64,000 nt of DNA from Williamsia sp. CHRR-6 (GTDB lineage: Bacteria; Actinomycetota; Actinomycetes; Mycobacteriales; Mycobacteriaceae): positions 1 through 64,000 of the forward strand of contig NZ_JAHCSG010000001.1 of the NCBI RefSeq assembly GCF_018474015.1, written 5' to 3'. The stretch's first letter is position 1, and the number at the start of each line of letters is the position of its first letter. Shown one piece after another: positions 46,041 through 53,337 of the stretch. The position numbers were made by a program, and so were the translations under genes. The notes beneath the pieces are model-generated. The model was not told the origin of the DNA and ran no database searches. It saw only the letters and a program-made list of their open reading frames with translations.

Positions 46041-46114
46041 GCCCCCGTAGCCCAATTGGCAGAGGCAACGGATTCAAAACCCGTCCAGTGTCAGTTCGAG
46101 TCTGACCGGGGGCA
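46041..46114 (+). tRNA. tRNA with CAA anticodon (tRNA-Leu by codon)
   Basis: A 74-nt cloverleaf. The acceptor stem GCCCCCG/CGGGGGC is perfect, the T arm is GTCAG-TTCGAGT-CTGAC, and the D arm is a 3-bp GCC/GGC stem. The anticodon loop TTCAAAA gives anticodon CAA, which reads UUG leucine. Two features are odd: the variable loop is only 5 nt (CCAGT), although leucine tRNAs normally have a long class II arm, and the anticodon stem closes with an A-C mismatch (46072/46080). The discriminator base is A; CCA is not encoded. Confidence 0.85.
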
Positions 46115-46435
46115 CTCACCGCACGCGAACTTCTCAGCTCTGGTCACACGCCCCACGGGTGCGTGCAATGCACCCCGACCCCCGTGCGGCACCGACAACT
46201 GCCTACGAATCCGTTCCCGCCGTCTCGCATTGACTGTCAATTCGTGACCTTCGAAAACGGCAGGCGTCGGCTTCTGCCCCCAATCGTGACCGTGGACGAC
46301 CCCGGGACCAGGGTCAGCTGTGGAGAATAAGAGGTGATGCCGTCCACCTCGTCGCCCCGCCAACCGTCGCCCACCGGCGATGAAAGTCGTTCCCGCACAA
46401 CGTCGCGCGGCGCCACCCGGTTCGCGACCAACCGA
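46115..46435. other. intergenic region between the tRNA and tetR
   Basis: 321 nt without a supported gene. It contains a perfect dyad ATTGAC-T-GTCAAT at 46229-46241. No integrase remnant, IS end or copy of the tRNA 3' end was seen. Confidence 0.4.
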
Positions 46436-47011
46436 TCAGCGATGCGTGTCGACACCCGCGAGAACCAACGACACAGCGGCGTCGATGACATGGTCGCCGG
46501 GGACCAGACCGTGCATGAGGATCGGCCAGATCACCGCGCCGGTCAGCATCGCGACCGCGGCGTCGACCGCTGCCGCCGCGGACACCTCCGACAGCATCGA
46601 TCGCAGTCGGCTCTCCTGATCGGCAACCAGCCTGCGCCGGATGTCGGCGATCTCTTCGTGATCGGCACCCCACTGTGCCAACGCGACGTACACCCGGCCC
46701 AGGTTGCGCTCGACCGTCCCGGCCCGCATGGCACGCAACTCGGCCGCGAGATCGACCTTCAGGTCGCCCGTGGGAGCGGCGTGCGGGATGGAGTCGACCG
46801 CGGTCAAGGCCATCGCGATGAGGTCGACCCGCGACGGCCAATGGGTGTAGAGCGTGGTCTTCGAGTAGCCGGCGGCGCGAGCGACGACAGAGTGGGTCAC
46901 TTCCTCCCACCCACGCCTCACCAGGACATCGAGCGCGGCGCGGGCCACGTCGGCACGGGTCCGGGCAACCCGGGCGTCCTCCCCCGGTTCCCGAGAATGG
47001 CCGGTCGGCAT
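46436..47011 (-). CDS. TetR-family transcriptional regulator, divergent from the MAA cluster
   Basis: A 191-residue regulator. The N-terminal helix-turn-helix (residues ~42-61: VVARAAGYSKTTLYTHWPSR) fits the TetR_N family; the C-terminal two thirds are helical and form the ligand-binding/dimer domain, with no clue to the ligand. A strong Shine-Dalgarno AGGAGGTGA lies ~9 nt before the ATG. It is transcribed away from the pseudo-HAD gene across a 236-nt region containing a perfect dyad, so it probably controls the sunscreen cluster and itself. The ligand could be a pathway product or a stress signal; this is inference. Confidence 0.9.
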   Translation of the reverse strand: MPTGHSREPGEDARVARTRADVARAALDVLVRRGWEEVTHSVVARAAGYSKTTLYTHWPSRVDLIAMALTAVDSIPHAAPTGDLKVDLAAELRAMRAGTVERNLGRVYVALAQWGADHEEIADIRRRLVADQESRLRSMLSEVSAAAAVDAAVAMLTGAVIWPILMHGLVPGDHVIDAAVSLVLAGVDTHR

Positions 47012-47090
47012 CGGAGCTCGTCACCTCCTCGATCACGACGTCAATCGCACGTTTGTTGTCGGAGAGAAAATACCTGTTGTCCTGGCGGTC

Positions 47091-47103
47091 CAGTACTGTA
47101 CTG
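47091..47103. promoter_or_regulatory. candidate operator in the tetR-MAA cluster intergenic region
   Basis: A perfect dyad CAGTAC-T-GTACTG. It lies 80 nt upstream of tetR and 144 nt upstream of the pseudo-HAD gene. Short dyads of this kind are usual TetR operators. The same 6-1-6 layout occurs downstream of tetR at 46229-46241 with a different sequence. Confidence 0.5.
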
Positions 47104-47247
47104 TTGGGTCACCAATATCCGTCTCGGCGTGGAAAACTCACGGCGCCAACGGATTTCGACGAGTCGCGCGCCTGTTCGTCGCTCGTATCCCCTGCACGCG
47201 ATCCGCCTCGACGGGCGCGTCTCACAGCCTCTTCAGGAGGAAAACCC

Positions 47248-47919
47248 ATGCCGTACATACTCTTCGGGTCGATCAGCACCGTGGCCGACACGTCGGAACT
47301 GCAACGCCAGGCCTTCAACACCGCATTCGCCGCGCATCACCTGAACTGGTCGTGGACACGCGATGACTACCTCGCGATGCTCGACACCAGCGGCGGCGAG
47401 CATCGCATCCGAGAGTACGCCCACGCCCAGGGCCAGACCGTCGATGCCGCGGCAGTACACGCCACCAAGACCGCCGTGTTCGCCGACCTGATCAGCCCCG
47501 CCACCGTGACCGCCCGGCCCGGCGTGGCGGCCACGGTCACGGCCGCACGGGCCGCAGGCATCCCGGTGGCGTTCGTGACCTCGACTGCGCGGAGCACGGT
47601 CACCGCGCTGCTCGACGCCCTCGCGCCCGAGCTCGGCCGCGACGCGTTCGATCTGGTCGTCGACATCGAGTCGGCGGGTGCGGCCAAGCCCGATCCGGCC
47701 GCATATCTCTTCGCGCTGCGAAAGCTCGGTGCCCAGCCCGGCGACTGCGTGGCCATCGAGGACAACCTCGGCGGGCTCGCGGCAGCGCGCGCGGCCGGCA
47801 TCACCTGCGTGGCCTTTCCCAACCAGAACACCGCACACGCCGACTTCGCCGACGCGCACACCGCCAGCAGCGAACTGGACTTCACCGAGCTGAAATCACT
47901 GGCTCTCGCCGGGGCCTGA
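47248..47919 (+). CDS. HAD-like protein of the beta-phosphoglucomutase/CbbY type lacking the catalytic aspartates
   Basis: A 223-residue HAD-IA fold protein, first gene of the MAA operon. Alignment by eye to CbbY-type phosphatases (cap helix [13 protein letters not shown] follows motif I as usual) shows that motif I, normally FDxDGT, reads FGSIST at residues 6-11. Both aspartates are gone (Gly7, Ile9). Motif II (FVTST, ~109-113), motif III lysine (AAKPDPAAY, Lys147) and motif IV (AIEDNLGG, Glu171/Asp172) remain. Phosphatase or mutase activity by the normal mechanism is therefore not expected; a binding, scaffold or regulatory role is possible. ATG 47248 has AGGAGG 7 nt upstream. mysA starts 55 nt later. 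Confidence 0.85.
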
Positions 47920-47974
47920 GCAGCATCTGCCCACCCGGTCCCACCACCCGATTCATCTGTCTCGAGGAGTACCC

Positions 47975-49186
47975 ATGAGCACCATCCAGGCCAGTGTCAC
48001 CGTCACCGACACCTCGTTCCACGTCGAGGGTTACGAGAAGATCGAGTACGACTTGATCTATGTGACAGGGGTTTTCGATCCCGCCAACACCGAGCTCGCC
48101 GACAGCTACCGCGCCTACGGCCGTACGTTGATGGTGATCGACAAGAACGTGTTGGAGCTCTACCGCGAGCAGATCGAGGCCTACTTCGCCGCGCATTCGA
48201 TCGAGCTGACGATCGTCGAGGTCGGAATCGCGGAGAAGGCAAAATCGCTGGAGACGTTCGAGGAGATCGTCACCGCGTTCGACGCCTTCGGGCTGGTCCG
48301 CACCGAGCCGGTGCTGGTCGTGGGCGGCGGCCTGACCACCGACGTAGCCGGCTACGCGTGCGCGAGCTACCGCCGCAGCACCCCTTACATCAGGATCCCG
48401 ACGACGCTGATCGGACTCATCGACGCCAGCGTGTCCATCAAGGTCGCGGTCAACCACGGCAAGCACAAGAACCGGCTCGGTGCCTACCACGCCTCGAGCA
48501 AGGTGCTGCTCGACTTCTCCTTTCTGGCAACGCTTCCCGAAGATCAGGTGCGCAACGGGATGGCCGAGCTGATCAAGATCGCGGTGGTGGGCAACCTCGA
48601 GATCTTCGAGCTCCTCGAAGCCCACGGACCCGACCTGCTCCGTACTCGCTTCGGGCACCTCGACGGTTCGGCCCGACTCCGCGAGGACGGCGCCCGACTC
48701 ACCCACCAGGCCATCGAGACGATGTTGCACCTCGAGGCACCGAACCTGCACGAACTCGACCTCGACCGGGTGATCGCGTTCGGTCACACCTGGAGCCCCA
48801 CCCTGGAATTGGCACCGAGTGAACCGTTCTTCCACGGCCATGCGATCGCCATCGACATGGCCCTGTCGACCACGTTGGCCGAACGGCGCGGACACATCAC
48901 CGTGGCCGATCGCGACCGGGTGCTGACCGTCATGAGCGACCTCGGCCTGTCGCTCGACAGCCCGTACCTGACCGCAGAGCTGCTGACCGAGGCCACCGCC
49001 TCGATCCTGCGGACTCGCGACGGGCTGCTCCGGGCGGCGGTGCCCAACCCCATCGGCATCTGCCACTTCATCAACGACCTCAGCGACGCGGAGTTGACCG
49101 ACACCCTGGAGATCCACCGGAAGATCTGCGCCGAGTTCGCACGGGCGGGCGACGGCGTGGACGCTTTCACCGCACCCGTCGGATGA
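47975..49186 (+). CDS. mysA: 2-demethyl-4-deoxygadusol synthase (sedoheptulose-7-phosphate cyclase)
   Basis: The 403-residue sugar phosphate cyclase makes the cyclohexenone core of MAAs from sedoheptulose 7-phosphate, using NAD and zinc like dehydroquinate synthase. NAD-binding [11 protein letters not shown] is at 118-128. Likely zinc ligands are Glu198 (AELIKIA), His271 and His287. The segment [17 protein letters not shown] (265-281) has Ala268, where dehydroquinate synthases have Asn and valiolone synthases Asp, so it is the DDG type. From memory it closely resembles cyanobacterial Ava_3858 ([21 protein letters not shown]). ATG 47975 has GAGGAG 8 nt upstream. Its stop overlaps mysB by 4 nt. 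Confidence 0.94.
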
Positions 49187-50079
49187 CGCCGACGACCATC
49201 CCGCCCACCGCCCACACCGCGACGCGACCCGGTTCGCCGCCGGGTCGACCGGTCACCCCGTCGACCATCATCGCCGCGGAGATCGGCGCACTGCGCGATG
49301 AGTTGAGCGTCGCCGGTCACCTCACCCCCGAGCTCGGCGCTCGCCTCGATCGACTGCACCGTCTGGCTGCGGGACTCGAGCCCTACGTCGGCGAGTGCAC
49401 CAGCCCACCGTCGCGTGCATTGACGCAACTGGCCCATCGGACCGCCGAGACCCCCTGGTTCGGTGACGGTGCCGCAGCGCATGTGGTGCCGTTGGAGCAG
49501 GAGATGCTCTCGGGGCATGTGGAGGGTGCCCTGCTGGGGTTCCTGGTGGCGATGTCACAGGCCCGTCGGATCCTGGAGGTCGGGATGTTCACCGGGTACG
49601 CCACGCTGGCGATGGCGCAGGCCCTCGACGACGACGGGACGGTGGTGGCCTGTGAGCTCGATCCGGCGGTGGCCGAGTTCGCGCGCGCTGGTTTCGCGGC
49701 TTCCCCTGCGGGACAGAAGATCTCGGTCCACGTCGGGCCAGCCGGCGACACCCTGACCGGGTTCGCCGCGCAACCACCCGCCGAGCGTCCGGTTTTCGAC
49801 CTCGTCTTCATCGACGCCGACAAACCCGGCTACCTCGGGTATCTGGAGACCATCCTGTCGGGTGGACTGCTGGCCGAGCACGGAACCGTGGTGGTGGACA
49901 ACACCCTCATGCAGGGCGAGCCCTACCTGGACTGCGACGAACGATCGCCCAACGGCGAGGCCATCGCGGCGTTCAACGCCGCAGTTCGCGACGACCCACG
50001 CGTGGTTCAGGTGCTGCTGCCCATCCGGGACGGAGTGACACTGATCCGGCGGCGACCGGAGGCGAGCACGCCCCGATGA
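49183..50079 (+). CDS. mysB: O-methyltransferase forming 4-deoxygadusol
   Basis: A 298-residue SAM-dependent class I O-methyltransferase that methylates 2-demethyl-4-deoxygadusol to 4-deoxygadusol, the common MAA core. SAM motif I is [10 protein letters not shown] (130-139), the metal site region is FIDADKPGY (Asp211/Asp213), and VVVDNTL follows. Conserved family landmarks [12 protein letters not shown] and [11 protein letters not shown] at the C-terminus match cyanobacterial MysB (Ava_3857 type) rather than plain caffeoyl-CoA enzymes. The N-terminal ~25 residues are Thr/Pro-rich and unaligned. ATGA overlaps join it to mysA and mysC. Confidence 0.92.
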
Positions 50080-51458
50080 ACCGCCGGACGACGAGACGCA
50101 CGATCACCAGCATCGGGACAGCGAACACCGGGGCGTCGAACACCGGCGGTGGCGTGGCCCAAGCGCTACGCACCATCGGTGTGCTCGGCCTGCTCGCCAC
50201 CGTGCTGCCGATCAACCTGGTGATCACCACCGTCGCCTGGGCGACCACCATCGCCGGGGTCGCCTCGCCGACGGTGACGCCCGCGTCGCGTCGGCGCACC
50301 GTGCTGATCACCGGCGGCAAGATGACGAAGTCGCTGGCGATCGCACGGGCCATGCATCTGGCCGGGCATCGAGTGGTGCTGTGCGAGGCGGCAAAGTACC
50401 GGTGGACCGGACATCAGTTCTCCCGCGCGGTCGACGTCTTCTGCACCACCCCCGACCCGAGTGCACCTGGCTATGCCCACGCGCTTCGCGACATCGTGCT
50501 CGCCGAGGGCGTCGACGTGGTGATCCCCGTGTCGAGTCCGGCCTCGAGCATCCCCGAGGCCGCTGCTCGGGTGGTCCTCGACGAGGTGTGCGAGGTGATC
50601 CATGGCGACATCTCGACGGTCCGCATGCTCGACGACAAGGACGAGTTCACGGCCACCGCGCGAGCTCTCGGTCTGTCGGTGCCCGACTCGTGCCGCATCA
50701 CCGACCCGCACGGGGTGGAGACCTTCGACTTCCCGCCGGGCCGCACGTACATCCTCAAACGCATCGCCTACAACCCGGTCGGACGGATGGACCTGACCCC
50801 CCTGCGACGCGAGACACCCGCCGAGAACGCCGCATTCGCACGCAGCCTCGGCATCACCGCCGACGACCCGTGGATCCTGCAGGAGTTCATCACCGGCCGC
50901 GAGTACTGCACGCACGGGACCGTGCGGGCGGGCCGACTGCAGGTCTATGCCTGCTGCGAGTCCTCGGCGTTCCAGATCAACTACGAGATGGTCGACAAGC
51001 CCGCCATCCGGACCTGGGTCGAGAGATTCCTCGCCGCAACCGATCTCACCGGGCAGGCATCATTCGACTTCATCGAGTCGGCCGACGGGACCCCGTATGC
51101 GATCGAGTGCAATCCGCGCACCCACTCGGCGATCACCATGTTCTACGACCACCCCGACCTCGCCGCCGCCTACGTCGACAACCGCAGCGGGACAATCGAA
51201 CCCACTCTCACCTCCCGCCCCACCTACTGGCTGTACCACGAGATCTGGCGGCTGCTCACCGAACCGGATCGGCGTGCTCGGATCTCGACGATCATGCGCG
51301 GCACCGACGCCATCTTCACCCGCTGGGACCCACTGCCGTTCTTGATGGTCCACCATCTGCAGATACCGAGCCTGCTGGTGGCAAACCTGCGTGGCCGACG
51401 CCGATGGTCACGGATCGACTTCAACATCGGCAAGCTCGTCGAACCCGGCGGAGATTGA
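50076..51458 (+). CDS. mysC: ATP-grasp ligase making mycosporine-glycine
   Basis: The 460-residue ATP-grasp enzyme activates 4-deoxygadusol by phosphorylation and adds glycine to give mycosporine-glycine. A hydrophobic segment (~33-62) precedes the catalytic part, suggesting membrane association as in cyanobacterial MysC. The N-terminal pre-ATP-grasp domain starts VLITGGKMTKSLAIAR; TYILKRIAYNPVGRMDL and WILQEFITGREYCTHGT form the ATP cleft; the metal-binding block is AIECNPRTHSAITMFYDHP. The C-terminus RIDFNIGKLVEPGGD matches Ava_3856 from memory. It overlaps mysB by 4 nt and mysD by 1 nt. Confidence 0.93.
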   Translation: MNRRTTRRTITSIGTANTGASNTGGGVAQALRTIGVLGLLATVLPINLVITTVAWATTIAGVASPTVTPASRRRTVLITGGKMTKSLAIARAMHLAGHRVVLCEAAKYRWTGHQFSRAVDVFCTTPDPSAPGYAHALRDIVLAEGVDVVIPVSSPASSIPEAAARVVLDEVCEVIHGDISTVRMLDDKDEFTATARALGLSVPDSCRITDPHGVETFDFPPGRTYILKRIAYNPVGRMDLTPLRRETPAENAAFARSLGITADDPWILQEFITGREYCTHGTVRAGRLQVYACCESSAFQINYEMVDKPAIRTWVERFLAATDLTGQASFDFIESADGTPYAIECNPRTHSAITMFYDHPDLAAAYVDNRSGTIEPTLTSRPTYWLYHEIWRLLTEPDRRARISTIMRGTDAIFTRWDPLPFLMVHHLQIPSLLVANLRGRRRWSRIDFNIGKLVEPGGD

Positions 51459-52549
51459 TGACCAGGGCAGCCACCGGCACCTCCCGGACGGTGCTCCACC
51501 TCGTCGGCTCCCCTACCGACGACTTCCACCTCGATCTGTCGATCGTGTACGCCCGGGGATGCCTGGCGGCGTTGAGCGCGCGAGATCGCGACCAGCACCA
51601 CATCGCTCTGGTACATCCGGACCGGACCTGGCGCTTCCCGGTCGACCTGACCGCCGATTCCATCGCCGACTCGACGCCGATGGCGATCGCCGAAGCCATC
51701 TCCCACATCCTGTCGTTGGGCGTGGATGTGGCTGTGCCCCAGATGTTCTGCCACGCGGGCATGACATCGTACCGCTCGTTGCTCGAGGTGATCGGCGTCG
51801 AGTTCCTGGGCAACCGTGGTGAAACGATGGCGTTGGCGGCCGACAAGGCGCGCACCCGCGCCGTGGTGGCGACGGCAGGCGTCGCGGTGCCCCGGGGCGA
51901 GGTGCTGGCCGCCGGCGAATCGGCCACGCTCACCCCGCCGGTGGTGGTGAAACCGGTTGCCTCGGACAACTCGGTGGGGGTCACGCTGGTGACCGAGGCG
52001 AGCCAGTTCCCCGCCGCCGTCACCGCCGCCCAGCTCCCCTCCGGGGTGGCGTTGGTGGAGGAGTTCATCGCTCTCGGCCGAGAAGTGCGGTGCGGCATCA
52101 TCGTCCGCGACGGCGCTCCGGTGGTGCTACCCCTCGAGGAGTACGCCGTGGACGCCCACACCCGGCCGATCCGTCGGCCCGAGGACAAGCTGGCCCGCAC
52201 CGACGGAGAGCTGTTCCTGGTGGCCAAGGACGTGACCCGGGCATGGATCGTCGACCCCACCGACCCGATCAACGCACGCGTGGCGGCGATGGCAGTGCGG
52301 GCACACCGAGCCCTGGGGTGCCGACACCACAGCCTCTTCGACTTCCGGATCGACCCGCAGGGCAATCCCTGGTTCCTGGAGGCGGGCCCCTACTGCTCGT
52401 TCTCGCCGAGCAGTGTGATCGCGGTGATGGCGCGGGCCGCAGGCATCGACGTCACCACCCTGTTCGACATCGCCGTCGACGAACTGCTCTCGACGCACGA
52501 ACCCAGACCTGGCCGAAACCACCCCGACGACCCGACATCAGGAGTCTGA
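51458..52549 (+). CDS. mysD: D-Ala-D-Ala-ligase-like enzyme attaching the second amino acid
   Basis: A 363-residue ATP-grasp ligase of the MysD type, which condenses an amino acid (Ser, Thr or another) with mycosporine-glycine to make an iminomycosporine such as shinorine or porphyra-334. The ATP-binding lysine block is PPVVVKPVASDNSVGV (Lys165), the lid carries VEEFIALGREVRCGI, and the metal-binding end is HSLFDFRIDPQGNPWFLEAG (Asp295, Glu308). The usual E-x-N of D-Ala-D-Ala ligases reads E-x-G here (Glu308-Ala-Gly310), which may be normal for the MysD branch. Amino acid choice cannot be read by eye. The ATG overlaps the mysC stop by one base. Confidence 0.9.
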   Translation: MTRAATGTSRTVLHLVGSPTDDFHLDLSIVYARGCLAALSARDRDQHHIALVHPDRTWRFPVDLTADSIADSTPMAIAEAISHILSLGVDVAVPQMFCHAGMTSYRSLLEVIGVEFLGNRGETMALAADKARTRAVVATAGVAVPRGEVLAAGESATLTPPVVVKPVASDNSVGVTLVTEASQFPAAVTAAQLPSGVALVEEFIALGREVRCGIIVRDGAPVVLPLEEYAVDAHTRPIRRPEDKLARTDGELFLVAKDVTRAWIVDPTDPINARVAAMAVRAHRALGCRHHSLFDFRIDPQGNPWFLEAGPYCSFSPSSVIAVMARAAGIDVTTLFDIAVDELLSTHEPRPGRNHPDDPTSGV

Positions 52550-52554
52550 GCACG

Positions 52555-53337
52555 ATGCAGATCCGAACCGAATCACCCTGTGGAGCAACGGTCCTCGACC
52601 ATGACGTGGCGGCGACGAGCGAGGACGACATCGCGGTGCTGCGAGGTCTGCTCGGCACCCATGGGGTCCTGGTGTTCCCCGATCAGGACGTCGACGACAC
52701 CGGATTCCTGGCCTTCCTCACCGCCTTCGGCGATCCGATGTTCACCCCCGGCGAGACCCCGGTACCCGGACACCCCGACCTCAACGTGATCTCCAATGTC
52801 GGGCGGACGACCACCCCGCGGTCGGTGTTCCACACCGACACCAGCTACGTCCCCACTCCGCCGGCGTACACGGCTCTGGTGGCCAAGCAGGTACCGGCGC
52901 GCGGCGGACAGACCCTGTTCGCCGATCAATACTCGGCGTATGACGCAATGCCCGCAGCGCTGCACGCCAAGCTGGCGGGACGGACCATCACCCATGCCGC
53001 CGGCGCCATCGACAACGGTGTCGAGGCCCGGGCCGATCATCCTGCGTTCCTACAGCACCCCGTGTCGGGCCGCACTGCGGTGTACGTCTCCACCCCAGCG
53101 CGCTGTGTCGCGGTCAGCGGGATGGACGACGAGCAGTCCGCCGAGCTGATCGGAGCGCTCTACGAGCACTGCACCCGGGATGAGTTCGTGCTCCGCCATT
53201 CCTGGCGCGCTGGCGATGTGGTCATGTGGGACAACCGATGTGTCCTCCATCGGGCCGATCACTCCGAGGTGATCGGCGATCGGGTGATGCACCGGGGAAT
53301 GGTCTGCGACCGGGCGACGCCCGGCGACCACAGCTGA
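52555..53337 (+). CDS. TauD/TfdA-family Fe(II)/2-oxoglutarate dioxygenase, probable MAA tailoring enzyme
   Basis: A 260-residue non-heme iron dioxygenase. The facial triad is intact: HTDTSY (His93, Asp95) and the distal His232 in VLHRADH, with the 2-oxoglutarate arginine at 247 (MHRGMV), 15 residues after His232 as in TauD. It starts 5 nt after the mysD stop, so it belongs to the MAA operon. Cyanobacterial MysH, which converts MAAs to palythines, is also Fe/2OG-dependent but is placed in the phytanoyl-CoA dioxygenase branch, not TauD. The likely substrate is the MysD product; hydroxylation or oxidative removal of an amino acid carbon is inference. Confidence 0.88.
   Translation: MQIRTESPCGATVLDHDVAATSEDDIAVLRGLLGTHGVLVFPDQDVDDTGFLAFLTAFGDPMFTPGETPVPGHPDLNVISNVGRTTTPRSVFHTDTSYVPTPPAYTALVAKQVPARGGQTLFADQYSAYDAMPAALHAKLAGRTITHAAGAIDNGVEARADHPAFLQHPVSGRTAVYVSTPARCVAVSGMDDEQSAELIGALYEHCTRDEFVLRHSWRAGDVVMWDNRCVLHRADHSEVIGDRVMHRGMVCDRATPGDHS

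Follow-up and report, generated by a model that had tools for sequence, protein, structure and literature searches.

The first 64,000 nucleotides of contig NZ_JAHCSG010000001.1 of Williamsia sp. CHRR-6, a soil actinobacterium (genome of 4.0 Mb in 14 contigs), were analysed as one window, which contains a predicted operon for mycosporine-like amino acids (MAAs), a class of UV sunscreens. Its layout is the already described HAD-mysABCD-TauD type, and the window adds one more likely MAA producer to the known list. What seems to be new is the state of the HAD-fold protein: in the cluster-linked copies compared, its catalytic residues have been lost, yet the protein has been kept. Taken as a whole, we give roughly even odds to an operon of the described type in which the TauD-family oxygenase would make palythine-serine and the HAD protein, devoid of catalytic activity, would serve as a partner, most probably to TauD.

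An HAD-fold protein without motif I aspartates

In the window protein, FGSIST occupies the place of the expected HAD motif I, FDxDGT, so that the "altered HAD" of a preliminary description of this locus proved real. Among proteins of known structure, CbbY phosphatases are closest, with FDxDGT at the same place and, in two entries, bound xylulose 1,5-bisphosphate; CbbY also gave the best structural matches to an AF2 model of the protein (mean pLDDT 94.4). The window HAD resembles CbbY xylulose-1,5-bisphosphate phosphatase (4uar, 4uas, 4uat, 4uau) in fold (TM 0.84; 35-37% identity) and shares its cap and pocket residues, but both motif I aspartates of CbbY are replaced, by glycine and isoleucine.

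Alignment of 84 non-identical HADs of 180-330 amino acids (proteins outside that size and identical copies were left out, and a frameshifted copy, L013, was omitted from motif, codon and tree counts) revealed glycine at position 7 in 61 sequences, all with S8 and I9 (FGSIST, 50; FGSIGT, 4; LGSIST, 2; FGSISS, 2; FGSISV, LGSISS and VGSIGT, 1 each). The remaining 23 carry aspartate at position 9 without exception, and at position 7 in 22 cases (one gap). Of the GSI-type proteins, 59 come from mys-bearing genomes, one from a Roseobacter plasmid (L085) and one from a cyanobacterium (L136/L192); all 61 form one clade under midpoint rooting, with a local support of only 0.57. Residues shared with CbbY (E17, Y41, H71, K74, T111, K147, E171 and D172 in window numbering) are invariant in 61/61. 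The family thus lacks the DxD nucleophile and acid/base of motif I and retains the fold, the motif II Thr/Ser, the motif III Lys and the motif IV acids (T111, K147, E171, D172). As an HAD without the aspartate is unable to form the aspartyl-phosphate of HAD phosphatases, we read the protein as non-catalytic and infer a pseudophosphatase, predicted to have no phosphatase activity. No report on the catalytic state of the MAA-cluster HAD was found in the openly licensed literature. Family searches and record annotations label such HADs hydrolases, at the risk that a non-existent phosphorylated intermediate is sought.

GSI-type HADs beyond Actinomycetota and Cyanobacteriota were sampled via plasmid records, with the motif read in 2 of the 19 records matched. 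On plasmid pROLI81 of Roseobacter litoralis (L085:7986-8657), such a gene (FGSIGT) lies beside TrkA/TrkH and L,D-transpeptidase genes, and in a cyanobacterium (L192:7352-8053) another adjoins an open reading frame (ORF) resembling, by eye, glucose-1-phosphate adenylyltransferase; neither has an MAA gene within 16 kb. The frameshift in Mycobacterium sp. AT1 (L013:5204-5911) may reflect sequencing error or decay.

Core pathway and candidate palythine-forming oxygenase

The contiguous mysABCD genes encode a cyclase, an O-methyltransferase, an ATP-grasp ligase and a D-Ala-D-Ala-ligase-like protein, i.e. a shinorine-type MAA cluster by gene content. MysA scored 547 bits against the cyclase 5tpr, which we take to be the Anabaena desmethyl-4-deoxygadusol synthase (the PDB list names it 3-dehydroquinate synthase), vs. 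299 bits against the valiolone synthase ValA (4p53), and no difference from 5tpr that bears on function was found. A268 and T347 of MysA align with D and H of ValA, and 5tpr has A and T there too; we assume this A/T pair to be the published fingerprint of desmethyl-4-deoxygadusol synthases vs. 2-epi-5-epi-valiolone synthases (EEVS). The window genome holds two dehydroquinate (DHQ)-synthase-family genes, mysA and one on another contig, presumably AroB. In a tree of 83 cyclase sequences rooted on the latter, the 73 A/T sequences formed one clade (local support 0.958), with eight A/K sequences and one S/K sequence outside. Passages of PMC4426668 state that two sites distinguish the cyclase types, without naming the residues. 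MysA as a valiolone synthase was thus ruled out by both scores and clade placement; the preliminary description had named grouping with such enzymes as evidence against an MAA locus, and its MAA assignment is well supported.

MysC matches no Pfam family and scored just below the cut-off of model NF005315 (406 bits); it is 72% identical to its counterpart in a Williamsia herbipolensis locus (L003). The omega loop of MysD carries an L...A pair (its position transferred by alignment without the reference sequences themselves), the serine or shinorine type, and the enzyme is predicted to add serine; an L-A or L-S pair there is linked to shinorine in passages of PMC11983340.

The iron-binding HxD...H residues of the TauD protein are invariant in 28 aligned sequences, as are two arginines 11 and 15 residues past the distal His, whose presumed roles (binding of 2-oxoglutarate (2OG) and of the substrate acid) we carry over from E. 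coli TauD. Among the closest relatives of the window protein with a solved structure are the aryloxyalkanoate dioxygenases RdpA and AAD-1. Enzymes of the TfdA/RdpA type hydroxylate the X-CH2-COOH of aryloxyacetates, with release of glyoxylate, and this match to the chemistry required for palythine formation supports a palythine role; oxidation of an iminomycosporine by TauD is plausible. MysH of Nostoc linckia, which makes palythine, is presumed to act likewise, as an Fe/2OG oxygenase that takes off the carbon arm of the glycine, but is described in passages of PMC10510106 as a phytanoyl-CoA dioxygenase type, whereas a Pfam search of the window protein at 1e-3 gave TauD alone and no phytanoyl-CoA dioxygenase. 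In the same passages, MysI of Nostoc sp. UHCC 0926 is a TauD/TfdA-family protein and the proposed palythine maker from Gly on C3. MysI sits with mysF and the non-ribosomal peptide synthetase gene mysE; it has the TauD/TfdA family in common with the window protein.

A plasmid search with TauD yielded 165 records, all below 60% identity (30.7-35.2% among the 30 matches listed). When 292 cyanobacterial genomes were scored with an MAA-TauD profile, a single TauD, in G397 (the genome that contains L046), exceeded 144 bits. The second-best, in G409, has two very long ORFs next to it; as the surrounding 19 kb showed no MAA gene, it is no obvious MysI.

According to passages of the GATOR-GC preprint of 2025 (PMC11888242), HAD and TauD are conserved (over 60%) and co-occur in actinobacterial MAA clusters, which have the same genes as the window cluster; HAD-mysABCD-TauD as a new architecture was rejected on this ground. 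The preprint also cites, as unpublished, the production of shinorine, palythine and palythine-serine in Streptomyces from a Rhodococcus fascians D188 operon that includes HAD and TauD. Because of this report, the product of the window cluster is probably a known palythine. With MysI described as well, the earlier suggestion of a new end product is weak, and while the MAA assignment stood, the novelty claimed for the HAD and TauD genes and for the product did not. The main text of PMC11888242 uses none of the terms nucleophile, active site and catalytic.

In the proposed pathway, MysA and MysB would convert sedoheptulose 7-phosphate to 4-deoxygadusol, to which MysC would add glycine and MysD serine, giving shinorine. 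TauD would hydroxylate the glycine arm at its alpha carbon, between nitrogen and carboxylate, and the resulting hemiaminal would break into glyoxylate and palythine-serine.

Several clusters vary in the core genes. Another type of cyclase, which has A/K at the fingerprint sites and is 36-40% identical to MysA, shares its locus with mysB and mysC in cyanobacteria (L056, L075, L076, L079, L080, L082) and Actinomycetota (L127, L128); L066 has S/K. Three loci (L029, Mycobacterium gordonae; L042, a Mycobacterium metagenome-assembled genome (MAG); L153) have no mysB match, with the order HAD-mysA-mysC-mysD-TauD and at most about 200 bases separating mysA from mysC matches; their product might not carry the O-methyl group, unless a methyltransferase encoded elsewhere supplies it. 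The order HAD-mysA-mysB-TauD-mysC-mysD was seen in L044, L045, L047, L048, L049 and L125, from Nocardioides, Pseudonocardia, Lapillicoccus, Antrihabitans and one further genome. Sequencing error or decay might account for mysB in two pieces in a Leptolyngbyaceae MAG (L046:7011-7819) and for TauD split into two frames in Nocardioides mangrovicus (L044:7618-7998).

Co-occurrence of HAD and TauD and the role of the HAD protein

A MysC scan kept 80 of 88 loci, 50 actinobacterial and 30 cyanobacterial, so that the "few actinomycetes" of the preliminary description were an understatement. Of the 50 actinobacterial loci, 48 have an HAD relative; the remaining two (L027, L043) are cut upstream by a contig end, with the L043 genome carrying HAD on another contig and the L027 genome not searched for it. 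TauD was present in 49/50 (not in L012; split in L044). Only one cyanobacterial locus of 30, L046, has HAD, and the same one has TauD; the absence of such an HAD from the other 29 refers to fetched stretches, some cut by contig ends, with the whole genome searched for two of the 30.

An even sample of 396 Actinomycetota genomes contained mysC in seven, a GSI-type HAD in the same seven and TauD beside six. The other 20 HAD matches reached at most 158 bits vs. at least 292 for the seven (the scan scored the best seven candidates per genome, so that weak HADs are not exhaustively listed); all were canonical in the motif alignment, and none adjoins mysA in its own 3-4 kb stretch. In a class sample of 394 genomes, mysC occurred in ten, with HAD beside 10/10 and TauD beside nine, one of them split. 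Pooled, with three genomes shared, the samples comprise 14 distinct mysC genomes, 14 with HAD and 13 with a TauD gene; they overlap the loci of the MysC scan (e.g. G278 is the genome of L030), and the counts are not additive.

Passages of PMC11888242 state that HAD and TauD are not present in Cyanobacteriota, whereas our survey found the pair in two cyanobacterial genomes. Matches past 1e-45 in the 292 cyanobacterial genomes were G397 and G457 (161 bits). The ORFs for HAD and TauD overlap in L046, by 14 nt when counted from the first start, and are divergent from mysABCD. G400 has an HAD-TauD pair, the two genes 9 nt apart, on a 173044-base contig, where the 18 kb around the pair contain no MAA gene, and mysABCD (L050) on a 158283-base contig. 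This natural evidence suggests that HAD and TauD may be a unit able to serve mysABCD from a distance. The two pairs, both from metagenome assemblies, are mutual closest relatives among the sequences compared (HAD, 67%; TauD, 73%; L011, L024 and L044, with short or split TauD, were left out of the TauD distance list).

On account of these pairs, the HAD protein, which keeps its fold and the compared CbbY pocket residues and has lost nucleophile and acid/base aspartate, would most likely be a partner of TauD that stabilises the oxygenase, presents its substrate or senses a phosphosugar. A non-catalytic partner role, if real, would explain the strict association of HAD with MAA genes in the sampled Actinomycetota genomes, and the protein may be required for palythines in heterologous hosts. 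The broader proposal, that the MAA systems of actinobacteria and of the two cyanobacteria require a dedicated CbbY-type pseudophosphatase, in which DxD became an invariant GSI loop apparently once, as a non-catalytic subunit or regulator of a palythine-forming TauD oxygenase, is tentative, and we hold it somewhat less likely to be true than false. No description of such a pseudophosphatase-oxygenase partnership was found in the openly licensed literature.

Several observations weigh against a TauD partnership. Aeromicrobium L012 keeps HAD with no TauD match at 1e-20 in the whole genome, and G214 keeps HAD with a best TauD of 105 bits that is not of the MAA type. The GSI-type HADs of L085 and L192, away from MAA genes, argue that a link to TauD is not universal in the family. 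Shared ancestry of the operon inflates the co-occurrence, and the cyanobacterial pairs, being mutually closest, may be a single event. No HAD is mentioned for cyanobacterial MysI, the word haloacid being absent from PMC10510106.

L012 and G214 would also fit another reading, as would the kinship with xylulose 1,5-bisphosphate-binding CbbY and the invariant CbbY-shared residues: a pseudophosphatase with a sugar phosphate as its ligand (sedoheptulose 7-phosphate or a pentulose bisphosphate), which would regulate or supply the MysA step without involvement of TauD. We consider this unlikely, if the strongest of the alternatives: HAD is lacking from the 29 cyanobacterial stretches mentioned above, both HAD-bearing cyanobacterial MAA genomes have it beside TauD, and the actinobacterial loci L127 and L128 retain HAD and TauD with the different (A/K) cyclase type, which speaks against a role tied to the MysA type of the window. 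Less probable still is an active enzyme of changed chemistry, in which the GSI[SG][TSV] loop would be a new catalytic site acting on an MAA intermediate or glyoxylate. The replacement motif is indeed nearly invariant rather than degenerate and the other HAD motifs are intact, but one literature search aimed at a precedent for GSI-loop catalysis, at abstract level, found none, and the proposed shinorine and palythine chemistry requires no such step.

A decaying passenger gene without function might be suspected from the loss of both catalytic aspartates, the frameshift in L013 and a median dN/dS of 0.45 over 415 pairs, the highest of six operon genes (MysA, 0.21; MysD, 0.31; MysB, 0.37; MysC, 0.37; TauD, 0.38; rough values computed with a simple Nei-Gojobori script for non-independent pairs, those with dS outside 0.05-0.8 being excluded). 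However, all values lie well below 1, the codons for the invariant G7 and S8 use all four synonymous forms, the frame is open in 48 of the 49 MysC-scan loci with an HAD match, and HAD is present in all 14 mysC genomes of the two samples. The gene thus appears to be under purifying selection; a degenerate gene was rejected and a functionless passenger is very improbable.

Locus layout, regulator and genus context

ORFs and gene-by-gene family searches confirmed the genes, order, overlaps and divergent TetR gene of the preliminary description (Table 1). The mysA/mysB and mysB/mysC overlaps measure 4 nt each and that of mysC/mysD 1 nt, TauD follows mysD after 5 nt, and the HAD gene is preceded by AGGAGG. 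The arrangement is beyond chance, HAD-mysABCD-TauD being present in identical order in many other genomes.

Table 1 Features of the MAA locus, in window positions
Feature	Position	Strand	Evidence and remarks
tRNA-Leu (CAA)	46041-46115		Between response-regulator gene and cluster; in all 7 congeneric stretches
TetR-family regulator	46436-47011	-	Pfam TetR_N 36.9 bits, TetR_C_11; divergent from operon
TetR-HAD intergenic region	47012-47247		Possible operator CAGTACTGTACTG at 47091-47103
HAD-fold protein, CbbY type	47248-47919	+	Pfam HAD Hydrolase 82.9 bits; both catalytic aspartates lost (FGSIST)
MysA, sedoheptulose-7-phosphate cyclase, desmethyl-4-deoxygadusol synthase type	47975-49186	+	DHQ_synthase 106.1 bits; A268/T347
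MysB, O-methyltransferase	49183-50079	+	Methyltransf_3 143.7 bits
MysC, ATP-grasp glycine ligase	50076-51458	+	NF005315 394.7 bits
MysD, D-Ala-D-Ala-ligase-like	51458-52549	+	Dala_Dala_lig_C 67.6 bits; omega-loop pair L...A
TauD/TfdA-family Fe(II)/2OG dioxygenase	52555-53337	+	PF02668 191.2 bits; H93-x-D95...H232, R243/R247 intact

TetR relatives above 60 bits occur in 31 of the 80 loci of the MysC scan. An inverted repeat, AGTAC-N1-GTACT, was present in 9 of 30 TetR-HAD intergenic regions (best word of 20 first-order-shuffled sets, 2/30), a count that is no independent test since these regions are related by descent; the window copy, CAGTACTGTACTG, is a possible operator.

All eight Williamsia genomes compared, that of the window included, contain mysC. 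In the seven others, TetR-HAD-mysABCD-TauD lies near a pdtaR-like response-regulator gene (82-91% identical) and tRNA-Leu(CAA), as in the window. Among the fetched stretches of the remaining loci compared, a pdtaR match above 36% was seen in none but L003, L011, L024, L033 and L038, all called Williamsia; three loci also called Williamsia (L019, L020, L040) have no pdtaR match in the fetched stretch. Given its presence with the same neighbours across the congeners, the MAA cluster appears to be old within Williamsia rather than a private island of strain CHRR-6.

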